Of a stretch of 64,000 nt of DNA, positions 27,389 to 30,884 are shown piece by piece. The DNA lies in the NCBI GenBank assembly GCA_005776885.1, contig SXOD01000020.1:1-64000 (forward strand). Direction: 5' to 3'. How positions within the stretch are numbered: the stretch's first letter is position 1; each line of letters starts with the position of its first letter. Source of the stretch: Planctomycetia bacterium. Lineage in GTDB: Bacteria; Planctomycetota; Phycisphaerae; Phycisphaerales; SM1A02. Both the position numbers and the translations under genes were made by a program. The notes under the pieces are model-generated. The model worked only from the letters and a program-made list of their open reading frames with translations. It was not told where the DNA came from and ran no database searches.

Positions 27389-28381
27389 TCACGTCCCAAT
27401 CCACGGAGACTTCGCGCGCGGGTTCCCGACCGCCTCGCCAAGCGACGCGAGCGACTCGCGCGCCGAGTCCGTCAGTTCGCTCGGTGCCACCACGTCCACG
27501 ACGACGAAGAGGTCGCCCTTTTCGCCGCGCGCCGCCGGGATCCCTTGGCCGGCCAGCCGGATTCGCTTGCCGCTTGATGTTCCCGGCGGCACCCGAACGG
27601 ACGCGGTGCCGCGGAGCAGCGGGACGTCCACGGTGGCGCCGAGCGCGCACTCCACGATGCTCACCGGCACGTGGACCGCGAGATTCAGCCCATCGCGAGT
27701 GAACCACGGGTGCGGCGCGACATGGATCTGCACGAGCAAGTCACCAGCCTCGCCGCCCCCCGCACCGGGGTGACCCTGGCCGCGAAGCCTGATGATCGAT
27801 CCCTCTCCGACGCCGGCCGGGATCCTTACGTCGATCGTCTTGTCGATCCCCTCGCCGTGAAGGCGAAGCGAAGCGTTGCCGCCGAGCGCGGCCGTCTCGA
27901 ACGCGACATGCACTTCCGCATCGATGTCTTCGCCGCGACGCTTGCGGCCACGAGTTCCGCCGCGAGGCGTCCGGCCGGCGTTCCCGGACCCGGCCGTGCC
28001 CCCGTCACCGCCAAACCCGCCGAAACCGCCAAATCCGCTGCCTCCTCCGCCGAAGTGTTGGTCAAAGAAGTCCCGCAGGTCTTCCTCGTTGACCTGTCCG
28101 TGGCCACCCGTTCCTCCGGGCGGCCATCCCGATGGCGATCCCCCGGTTCCTCCCGCGGCTCCCGACACCCCAGCCTCGCCGAACTGGTCGTATCGCGCGC
28201 GCTTCTCCGGATCGGAGAGGACGTCGTAGGCGTTCTGGAGTTCCGCAAACGTGGTCTGGGCGTCGGCGGCCTTGTTCACGTCGGGATGAAGTTTCCGGGC
28301 GAGCGCACGATGCGCCTTGCGGAGATCGTCGGCGGTTGCCGTGCGCGGGACGCCAAGCACTTCGTAGTAGTCGCGAGCCAC
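27389..28381 (-). CDS. DnaJ-family co-chaperone, CbpA type
   Basis: 330 residues if started at GTG 28381, giving the typical N-terminus (V)ARDYYEVLGVPRTATADDLRKAHRALARKLHPDVN. The J-domain HPD triad is in KLHPDVN. The upstream ATG 28426 would overlap the divergent gene's start, and a TACACT hexamer 8 bases before GTG 28381 supports the shorter form. A Gly/Phe-rich linker (FGGGGSGFGGFGGFGGDGG) follows. There is no CxxCxGxG zinc finger; two C-terminal beta domains come instead (VHVAFETAALGGNASLRL, IRLRGQGHPGAGGGEAGDLLVQI, GTSSGKRIRLAGQGIP). It stimulates DnaK and binds unfolded clients. dnaK is not in the window. Confidence 0.93.
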   Translation of the reverse strand: MARDYYEVLGVPRTATADDLRKAHRALARKLHPDVNKAADAQTTFAELQNAYDVLSDPEKRARYDQFGEAGVSGAAGGTGGSPSGWPPGGTGGHGQVNEEDLRDFFDQHFGGGGSGFGGFGGFGGDGGTAGSGNAGRTPRGGTRGRKRRGEDIDAEVHVAFETAALGGNASLRLHGEGIDKTIDVRIPAGVGEGSIIRLRGQGHPGAGGGEAGDLLVQIHVAPHPWFTRDGLNLAVHVPVSIVECALGATVDVPLLRGTASVRVPPGTSSGKRIRLAGQGIPAARGEKGDLFVVVDVVAPSELTDSARESLASLGEAVGNPRAKSPWIGT

Positions 28382-28389
28382 GGCGCGGA

Positions 28390-28414
28390 AGTGTAGACGC
28401 GACGCGCCTACACT
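28390..28414. promoter_or_regulatory. Symmetric divergent promoter with paired TACACT elements
   Basis: AGTGTAG and CTACACT form a perfect inverted repeat (arms 28390-28396 and 28408-28414). Read outward, each arm gives TACACT: 8 bases before GTG 28381 (dnaJ-like, minus strand) and 10 bases before ATG 28425 (membrane ferredoxin, plus strand). The two genes therefore probably share a mirrored, short-leader promoter region. Confidence 0.5.
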
Positions 28415-28424
28415 CGCGTGCGAC

Positions 28425-30410
28425 ATGAGCGCCTCGCCGCGATGCACGGATGTCCCGCTGACCATCCTCGCCGGGGGCCCTCGGTCCGGGGGCGATGCCG
28501 GCCAGCGACGCGTGAACCGCATGTCGCGGCGGCGATTCACCGTGCTGATCGCGATCCAGGTCCTGCTGGCCCTCCACGTGGGACTCTGGCTCTGGGCCGG
28601 CGGCGAGACGCTCTCGCCCGTCGAGCCCAGCGAGAGCATGGAAACGCTCAAGCATGGCATCATCAACGTCGGTGCGCTCCTGTTTGGCACGGCGTTGCTG
28701 AGCACCGCGATCCTCGGCCGCTGGTTCTGCGGCTGGGGCTGCCACGTGATCTTGCTCCAGGACTGGTGCGAGCGGCTCTTGGTGCGATGGGGAATCCGCC
28801 CGAAACCGTTCCGCTCGCGGCTCCTTTTGTGGGTCCCCTTGGCGCTGGCGCTCTACATGTTCGCGTGGCCCGTCGTCTACCGACTTGCACTCGCCCCGTT
28901 CGTGCAACCGGACTTGCACTGGCCAGGCTGGTCCTGGCAGCTCACGACCAACGACTTCTGGAAGACCTTCCCCTCCTGGGCCGTCGCCATCCCGTTCCTC
29001 TTCGTCTGCGGATTCGTCACGGTCTACCTGCTGGGCGGCAAGGCGTACTGCACCTACGGCTGTCCCTACGGCGGGTTCTTTGCCCCCCTGGACCGACTCG
29101 CCCGCGGCCGGATCCGGGTCAACGACGACTGCGAGGGGTGCGGCCACTGCACCGCCTCGTGCTCATCCAACGTGCGCGTGCACGAGGAAGTCCGGGACTT
29201 CAAGATGGTGGTCGATCCAGGCTGCATGAAGTGCCTCGACTGCGTGGCAGCGTGCCCGAAGGAGGCGCTGCGGTTTGATTTCGGCCCCGCACCCGACTCC
29301 TCGCAGCGCCCGGCCGCCGGTCGGCTGTTTGACTTGCGACTGTGGGAAGAACTGGTGATCGCGATCGTCGGCGTCGGCACGATGCTCGCGGTGCGCGGTG
29401 CCTACGGCGCGGTTCCACTCCTCTTTGCCAGCGGCATCGGCGCGTGCGTGGCCTTCGTGGCGTGGAAGGCCACGCGAGTGATCCACGGCGGATCCGCCGC
29501 GTTCCATGGCCACCAGCTCCGGCGCAACGGGAAACCGACGGCGCTTGGGCTGGCGTGGGTCGTGGGTGCGGCACTCGCGCTGGCCGCGGTCGCGCACACC
29601 GGCTGGATCAGCGTGCTGGCCGAGCGGGGCAACGCGGCCTACGTTTCGCTCGACCTTCCGGAGTCCGACGTCTTCGGCGATCACCGGGTGGAACTGGAAC
29701 CCACGCGCCGCGACGCGGCGCAGCGCGGCCTGGAGGACCTCACGGCGGCCTCCAACTTCCGCTCGGGTGGATGGGGAGTGGGCAGCCAGTCCTGGCAGGA
29801 CGGACTGGACCTCCGTCGCGCCTGGATCCACTGCGTGCTGCATGACTACGCCGCCGCGCAGTCACTGCTCCAGGCGATGTACGACCGGTCCCCCACGGAG
29901 GCAGTGGCCGCCAACATCGGGCGGATCATGCGCGCGCAGGGCGATGACCTGGGCGCGGAACGCAGCTACCAGGATGCCATCACGGCGCACCCGGACTGGG
30001 GACGCCTGCGCGACGAGCGGATCCTGTGGCTCATCCAGTCGAGCCGTTACGACGAAGCGCTTGCCGCCGCACGGCACTGGGTGGCCGACCGCCCCGATGA
30101 CCTCATGGGGATGCGTCGACTCTCCTTGGTGCTCCTGGACTCCCCGCAACCGGAGCTGGTGGAGGAGGGGATTGCCTTGGTGCGGCACACACTCACCATC
30201 GACCCATCCAATGGATTTGCCCACTACGCACTTGGGCTGGCGGAGGCTCAGCGCGGGAGGCTGGACCTGGCGTTGCCGGCATTCGAGGAGGCATTGCGGC
30301 TGCAGCCCGAACACCCAGCCGTTCGGCAAGCCTTGGCGCAGCTCTACTCGGAGATTGGACGGGAGTCCGAGGCCGCCAAGTTGCTCGCGCCAGCACAGCC
30401 GCCGCGGTAA
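28425..30410 (+). CDS. Membrane-bound 4Fe-4S ferredoxin (NapH/CcoG-like) fused to TPR domain
   Basis: 661 residues from ATG 28425 (ATG 28521 is an internal alternative). The first 350 residues are a NapH/NosR/CcoG-like polytopic protein: helices near residues 37-55 and 80-100, the motifs GRWFCGWGCHV and YCTYGCPYGGFFAPLD, and two ferredoxin clusters (CEGCGHCTASCSS and CMKCLDCVAACPKEALRF). After two more helices the C-terminal 250 residues are tetratricopeptide-like (AVAANIGRIMRAQGDDLGAERSYQDAITAHP, FAHYALGLAEAQRGRLDLALPAFEEALRLQPEHP). The N-terminal part should carry electrons at the membrane, and the TPRs should bind a partner. This fusion is not one I know. CcoG acts in copper handling for cbb3 oxidase, so a respiratory role is possible but unproven. 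Confidence 0.87.
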   Translation: MSASPRCTDVPLTILAGGPRSGGDAGQRRVNRMSRRRFTVLIAIQVLLALHVGLWLWAGGETLSPVEPSESMETLKHGIINVGALLFGTALLSTAILGRWFCGWGCHVILLQDWCERLLVRWGIRPKPFRSRLLLWVPLALALYMFAWPVVYRLALAPFVQPDLHWPGWSWQLTTNDFWKTFPSWAVAIPFLFVCGFVTVYLLGGKAYCTYGCPYGGFFAPLDRLARGRIRVNDDCEGCGHCTASCSSNVRVHEEVRDFKMVVDPGCMKCLDCVAACPKEALRFDFGPAPDSSQRPAAGRLFDLRLWEELVIAIVGVGTMLAVRGAYGAVPLLFASGIGACVAFVAWKATRVIHGGSAAFHGHQLRRNGKPTALGLAWVVGAALALAAVAHTGWISVLAERGNAAYVSLDLPESDVFGDHRVELEPTRRDAAQRGLEDLTAASNFRSGGWGVGSQSWQDGLDLRRAWIHCVLHDYAAAQSLLQAMYDRSPTEAVAANIGRIMRAQGDDLGAERSYQDAITAHPDWGRLRDERILWLIQSSRYDEALAAARHWVADRPDDLMGMRRLSLVLLDSPQPELVEEGIALVRHTLTIDPSNGFAHYALGLAEAQRGRLDLALPAFEEALRLQPEHPAVRQALAQLYSEIGRESEAAKLLAPAQPPR

Positions 30411-30422: not shown

Positions 30423-30884
30423 ATGACTGCGGCCCTGAGCGAGATCCTGTCCCTGACGGCGGTGAAGGTGCCGCTTGTGGCCACCACTCGGCAGGGGGCG
30501 ATCGACGAACTGGTGGACCTGCTCGCGGCGCAGGGCGACATCGGTGACGCGGAGACACTCAAGAAGAGCGTCTGGGAGCGCGAGTGCCAACGATCGACTG
30601 GCATTGGGGAGGGGCTGGCCATCCCGCACGGCAAGTGCGCGACCGCCTCACGGCTGGCGCTCGCGGCGGGCATCTGTGCCGAGCCGATTGACTTTCAGTC
30701 CATCGACAAGAAGCCGGTCCACATGATCCTGCTCCTCATTTCGCCACCGGACCGAATCACCGACCACATCCAGGCCCTCGGGCGGATCAGCCGCGCGCTC
30801 TCCAGTGCGTCGGTGAGGCAGCAGGCATACTCGTCCAAGGACGCGAGGGCGCTCTACGAGCTCCTCGCCCAGCACGGCGCCTGA
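30423..30884 (+). CDS. PTS EIIA domain protein (fructose/PtsN type)
   Basis: 153 residues, a single EIIA type-2 domain. The phosphorylatable histidine is in TGIGEGLAIPHGKC (about residue 63). Flanking family features are ILSLTAVKVPLVATTRQGAIDELVDLLAAQG and VHMILLLISPPDRITDHIQALGRISRAL. No EIIB/EIIC permease, HPr or EI is visible, so it is probably regulatory, like PtsN of the nitrogen PTS, rather than for sugar import. It follows the ferredoxin-TPR gene by 12 bases. A second EIIA-only gene sits at 43968-44426. Confidence 0.9.
   Translation: MTAALSEILSLTAVKVPLVATTRQGAIDELVDLLAAQGDIGDAETLKKSVWERECQRSTGIGEGLAIPHGKCATASRLALAAGICAEPIDFQSIDKKPVHMILLLISPPDRITDHIQALGRISRALSSASVRQQAYSSKDARALYELLAQHGA

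Follow-up and report, generated by a model that had tools for sequence, protein, structure and literature searches.

A planctomycete NapH/CcoG-type membrane ferredoxin carrying a C-terminal TPR domain and its genomic association with the secreted GTTSCNxG family

The window, a 64,000-nucleotide stretch of a planctomycete contig (SXOD01000020.1), contains one uninterrupted open reading frame of 661 a.a. at 28425-30410 on the forward strand, with its ATG at 28425 and its stop codon at 30408-30410. The original prediction of a NapH/CcoG-like polytopic ferredoxin fused to a TPR domain is borne out by this single frame, by Pfam and by an AlphaFold model (mean pLDDT 90.8), and orthologous genes were found at about 80 loci. 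In Pfam, Fer4_5 was matched at 1.2e-7, TPR_19 at 1.8e-10 and the Fer4 dicluster models at about 2e-6. Fer4_5, the PF12801 NapH-like module, scored 32 bits against a gathering score of 22, and TPR_19 scored 41.4 bits against a cut-off of 25, with the best TPR match at residues 598-657; the TPR assignment agrees with the alpha-solenoid of the model and with Foldseek. The protein is ordered as four transmembrane (TM) helices, a cytoplasmic-type 2x[4Fe-4S] domain, three further TM helices and an alpha-solenoid extending to the C-terminus.

All of these parts lie on the forward strand. TM1 (residues 32-57, an AlphaFold helix; 28518-28595) harbors His51, which is invariant in 68/68 orthologues. TM2 (residues 82-97) and the juxtamembrane motif FCGWGCH occupy 28668-28745, and C102, C106 and H107 of the motif are all invariant (68/68). 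H107 takes the place of the proline in the usual first CX3CP motif, and this histidine is equally invariant in the 29 paralogues of a sister clade described below (29/29). TM3 (residues 134-160; 28824-28904) was assigned from hydropathy and AlphaFold, and TM4 (residues 185-203) is followed by the second juxtamembrane motif, YCTYGCP (28977-29066), a CX3CP motif in which C209, C213 and P214 are invariant. The predicted cytoplasmic dicluster ferredoxin domain (C236-C277; 29130-29255) contains two 4Fe-4S motifs, CEGCGHCTASC (C236/239/242/246) and CMKCLDCVAACP (C267/270/273/277), both of which had been predicted and are present as sequence motifs with Fer4 Pfam matches. The eight cysteines are invariant or almost so, except C270 (60/68); Thr or Ile replaces it in 8/68 clade-A proteins (A1, position 270), clade A being that of the window protein. 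TM5-TM7 (residues 306-323, 332-354 and 373-408; 29340-29648), assigned from hydropathy, charge and AlphaFold helices, include a positive, predicted cytoplasmic loop at residues 348-375. The predicted periplasmic C-terminal TPR/alpha-solenoid spans residues 413-654 (29661-30386), in agreement with the roughly 250 residues of TPR-like repeats claimed at the outset. The TPR residues are poorly conserved, with no position at or above 95% in residues 460-661.

The AlphaFold model, built from 68 relatives, had a pTM of 0.86, and the pLDDT of the C-terminal helical solenoid was mostly above 95. Foldseek matched the model to TPR structures; searches of solved structures and folds returned mainly TPR chains, and the membrane ferredoxin part had no structure match. 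Averaged over the alignment, the charge was positive at the N-terminus (+5.7) and in loops 111-131 (+3.5) and 348-375 (+5.6), and negative in loop 59-77 (-2.0) and the C-terminal domain (-9.2). From hydropathy, this positive-inside charge bias and the seven TM helices, the TPR domain is predicted to be periplasmic, opposite the cytoplasmic clusters. With this topology, any client that binds would sit outside the cytoplasm, and electrons would need to traverse the membrane. The original prediction had the TPR domain recruit a client that receives electrons; client recruitment is plausible and indeed the most sensible role, but a cytoplasmic site for it conflicts with the predicted topology.

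The proposed survey of the fusion across genomes showed that it recurs in about 80 loci and across the phylum. A same-genus orthologue is 73% identical across nearly the full length, and most of the genomes sampled in its family retain a recognizable copy. In the 80 loci from the GTDB contig scan, every open reading frame is about 580 a.a. or more, most being 650-700 a.a., and thus long enough for both the ferredoxin and TPR parts. Among 68 aligned members (A1), Fer4_5 was matched in 68/68 at E<=0.001 and TPR_19 in 60/68; the clade-B paralogues (A2) matched Fer4_5 in 29/29 at the same threshold and a TPR model in about 22. The CcmH/CycH TPR model was matched in 16/68 (A1) and 12/29 (A2) at E<=0.001. 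A frameshift or chimera was ruled out, since about 80 database loci share the architecture, and no Pfam or NCBIfam model names a ferredoxin-TPR fusion; the two outcomes that the original prediction named as refuting it were thus both absent. We found no description of it among open-licence papers, and a plasmid protein search with the fusion gave distant matches alone, chiefly E. coli YccM. Among planctomycetes this membrane protein is widely conserved, although it has no family name.

The divergent DnaJ gene and the EIIA gene just downstream, which had also been pointed out, were both confirmed. The DnaJ homologue (27389-28381, reverse strand; likely GTG start at 28381) has a J domain and DnaJ_C without a zinc-finger match in Pfam, and is therefore CbpA-like. 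The EIIA gene (PTS_EIIA_2, 8.7e-29; 30423-30884, forward strand) starts 12 nt past the stop codon of the fusion gene. Both are neighbors, and putative partners at most. DnaJ was divergent in 35/35 loci where it was found. For EIIA, the 51 orthologous loci divide into 19 with the gene on the same strand and 32 with it on the opposite one. In another lineage, DnaJ is absent and the fusion gene is preceded by an Ndk-like gene and a sigma factor. The synteny of the window's clade comprises gatB, HPRT, a small membrane protein, DnaJ, the fusion gene, EIIA, rsmB and metK, mostly housekeeping-like genes whose names, besides DnaJ and EIIA, were assigned by sequence inspection. A functional link with DnaJ or EIIA was rejected because orientation and presence vary among orthologous loci, and both look like syntenic bystanders that neither indicate a function for the fusion nor favor cytoplasmic clients.

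Between the DnaJ and fusion genes lies a promoter-like divergent inverted repeat (28383-28421), which is imperfect (19-nt arms at 28383-28401 and 28403-28421, 79%) and contains two outward-facing TACACT hexamers, at 28409-28414 on the forward strand and 28390-28395 on the reverse strand, each 8-10 nt from the likely start codon of its gene. The predicted "mirror-image promoter" thus holds as an inverted repeat in the sequence, but no consensus sigma-70 promoter was detected in the divergent start region, and promoter activity is only putative. Within 60 nt upstream of 68 relatives, TANNNT occurred 32 times at the six positions from -12 to -17 versus 17 times over the remaining positions, suggesting a very short leader. 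Together with the mirrored hexamer for dnaJ, this raises the possibility of near-leaderless divergent transcripts.

An unannotated secreted protein family, defined by the motif string GTTSCNxG...HPVIGQN...KHGF...CxxC...GCSDPYS and hereafter called GTTSCN, accompanies the fusion across genomes. Its proteins have four well-conserved cysteines (SCN, CxxC and C-x-D) and conserved histidine. The common domain matched no model in Pfam or NCBIfam and had no convincing relative in the PDB; add-on domains such as GSDH were the sole Pfam/NCBIfam matches. Some members of the family are fusions with GSDH or with other domains. The family is often present in several copies per genome, with 2-11 matches in many genomes. 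Two copies, C47:34125-35354 and C52:11249-12460, occur in the window genome, on other contigs and unlinked to the window gene, and both of their proteins end in a dockerin-like region as judged by eye. In the loci L265 and L266, these own-genome genes lie on the reverse strand (L265:8066-9901 and L266:7160-8653); relatives lie on the forward strand at L237:10751-11944, L234:7837-9051 and L242:6498-9029. Redox activity of these proteins is a guess, because a known cofactor or fold is absent.

The co-occurrence was evaluated in one draw of 343 genomes of the planctomycete phylum, used for both families. The main NapH-TPR family was found in 65/343 genomes and the GTTSCN family in 78/343, about a fifth. 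GTTSCN was encoded in 65/65 genomes with the main NapH-TPR family versus 13/278 without it, so that 13 genomes had GTTSCN alone and 265/343 had neither. The Fisher test gave 1.9e-57 by genome, genomes being phylogenetically non-independent units, and 7.6e-17 by family, where a count by hand gave 18 families carrying both, 4 carrying only GTTSCN and about 84 carrying neither. The 65-genome set leaves out 15 genomes whose matches scored low (about 30% identity), by a cut set after seeing the scores. Within the window's own family, G008, G010, G032 and G039 lack both the fusion and GTTSCN, and G011 and G048 have GTTSCN only (Fisher 0.003); G041 alone among those checked has the fusion without GTTSCN, and its fusion gene is a fragment. 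In G225, of the same order, the fusion is present and a GTTSCN protein was undetected. GSDH, another extracytoplasmic redox family, occurs irrespectively in 231/343 genomes, too common for a matched control.

In addition, the two genes are physically adjacent in many relatives. Core-to-core adjacency (<=4 kb) of NapH-TPR and GTTSCN was observed in 18/65 genomes, against a rough expectation of 1%, and the shortest gaps were -1, 9 and 24 nt on the same strand. On the tree, GTTSCN is a neighbor in every leaf of the basal clade-A group (10/10) and of the group that follows (3/3), and the window's subclade (85 leaves) has neither GTTSCN nor a cytochrome nearby. The window's clade has lost the GTTSCN adjacency.

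The sister clade, clade B, comprises 29 paralogous sequences, one of them in the window genome at C14:48247 (L139). A five-haem c-type cytochrome gene adjoins the clade-B gene in 16/29 tree leaves. In the window genome the two are 9 nt apart, the pentahaem cytochrome (L139:8079-9929) lying directly upstream of the NapH-TPR paralogue (L139:9939-11402). The clade-B cytochromes gave weak Pfam matches to Mtrc-MtrF and Cytochrome_C7. In 26/29 clade-B proteins, the second cysteine of the second ferredoxin motif is an aspartate (A2; position 266 of L139), and substitution of this cysteine suggests an altered second cluster in clade B and in the 8/68 clade-A proteins mentioned above. At L162, L164-L167 and L170, clade-B genes are near genes for a large molybdopterin oxidoreductase, a two-haem EB_dh subunit, a cytochrome b and an octahaem cytochrome, surroundings that are possibly a respiratory island. 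Two sulphatase-like genes, assigned by eye, flank a NapH-TPR relative at L231 (7595-8923 and 11025-12407).

In a more divergent group of 15 genomes, at about 30% identity, GTTSCN was absent in 14/15 and TPRs were present in 2/3 proteins examined. This combination of TPRs with a general lack of GTTSCN suggests that the fusion probably predates the GTTSCN link. The group's CGWGCH ferredoxins examined at L245:9457-11004 and L246:8324-9838 end in TPRs; near the one at L245 are cytochrome genes with four and five haems whose sizes resemble NrfH/NrfA.

The architecture, its conservation, the co-occurrence and the gene adjacency in relatives are direct products of the computation and the topology is a prediction; we infer bound cofactors, partner binding, and electron flow with its direction. 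In our preferred interpretation, which we hold with moderate confidence, the protein conducts electrons across the membrane in the manner of NapH/CcoG/NosR and docks secreted partners on a periplasmic TPR arm. Either the quinol pool or a donor in the cytoplasm would supply the electrons, which would pass through the two cytoplasmic [4Fe-4S] clusters and the membrane module, with its juxtamembrane CX3CH and CX3CP motifs and its invariant histidine in TM1, toward (or from) the periplasmic face. On that face, a secreted partner would dock on the TPR arm at the C-terminus, most likely a GTTSCNxG protein in clade A, and a pentahaem c-type cytochrome in clade B. More broadly, with about even confidence, NapH-TPR and GTTSCNxG may constitute an uncharacterized planctomycete extracytoplasmic redox or maturation system in which the TPR arm selects the partner, the sister branch being paired with pentahaem cytochromes.

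The main alternative, which we regard as rather unlikely, is that the protein is a maturation factor that reduces a metal or disulphide in a secreted client (GTTSCN or cytochrome) held by the TPRs, after which the client leaves. NosR acts for NosZ and CcoG for cbb3 oxidase, which provides analogues for such a role. The four conserved cysteines and conserved histidine of GTTSCN would suit a metal or disulphide, a single membrane protein serving several secreted copies is what a maturase would do, and the matches to the CcmH/CycH TPR model recall the periplasmic TPR of cytochrome c maturation. Furthermore, CcoG, an assembly factor that acts as a cupric reductase, has the same core and a periplasmic C-terminal Ig-like domain (PMC7558416). 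However, we identified no copper or thiol-disulphide gene beside the fusion gene, and the window genome already has a separate CcoG-like protein (L249:496-1977; Fer4_18, 4.3e-35).

It is less probable still that the TPR arm serves oligomerization or membrane organization only, with the GTTSCN link reflecting a shared planctomycete lineage and lifestyle. The weak conservation of the TPRs, the loss of adjacency in the window's clade and the scarcity of GTTSCN in the divergent group are consistent with this explanation, whereas the operon-like adjacency recurs in separate lineages, the four genomes of the window's family show joint absence, and GSDH, by comparison, is found in most genomes irrespective of the fusion. 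A cytoplasmic TPR recruiting a cytoplasmic client, perhaps tied to DnaJ or EIIA, is very improbable despite the widespread DnaJ/EIIA synteny in the window's clade, given the predicted periplasmic TPR, the frequent opposite orientation of EIIA, the absence of DnaJ in other lineages and the mostly housekeeping-like character of the other neighbors (gatB, HPRT, metK and rsmB).

NapH-like proteins exchange electrons with extracytosolic enzymes via FMN domains or separate cytochromes. If the proposed conduit does dock its partners on a periplasmic TPR arm, this NapH-like clade would have another way of choosing partners, and the GTTSCN proteins, which matched nothing in Pfam, NCBIfam or the PDB here, would gain their first functional lead.

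The best-matching named ferredoxin family was NapH/MauN (TIGR02163; 4.8e-13), at 49.2 bits against an NCBIfam cut-off of 213. The window protein shares with NapH/MauN (TIGR02163, PRK09477) the Fer4_5 module, two juxtamembrane Cys motifs and the 2x[4Fe-4S] cytoplasmic domain, including, by sequence and predicted topology, the two cytoplasmic-side 4Fe-4S motifs of NapH. However, its first motif is CX3CH instead of CX3CP, it has three extra TM helices and the TPR domain, and both its locus and those of the orthologues have a housekeeping neighborhood instead of a nap or mau cluster. With the cupric reductase CcoG/FixG/RdxA and E. coli YccM it has in common the core and, by its predicted topology, a C-terminal extracytoplasmic domain, but this domain is a TPR rather than an Ig-like domain or Fer4_18 architecture, and a cco cluster is absent at the locus. 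CcmH/CycH (CcmI) has a periplasmic TPR domain that binds a secreted client; the window protein matches its profile weakly, below the Pfam cut-off (22.8 vs 42), and the CcmH/CycH TPR is not joined to a ferredoxin. The PF12801 module is used modularly for electron exchange with extracytosolic oxidoreductases (PMC8238504), where the NapH-like systems belong to flavinylation-linked clusters and the main text is without the word "tetratricopeptide". NosR/PceC (RdhC) likewise combines the membrane module with an extracytoplasmic domain, which binds FMN and is proposed to transfer electrons to an extracytoplasmic enzyme (PMC5928378), but theirs is N-terminal whereas the TPR of the window protein is C-terminal, and FMN_bind was neither matched by Pfam in the window protein nor present in the family listings of its relatives. 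We rejected filing the protein as NapH, CcoG or NosR, whose defining features were tested and found lacking. Taken together, these known relatives, with the FMN domain of NosR/PceC and the Ig-like domain of CcoG placed outside the cytoplasm on the same module, support a conduit with a periplasmic TPR.
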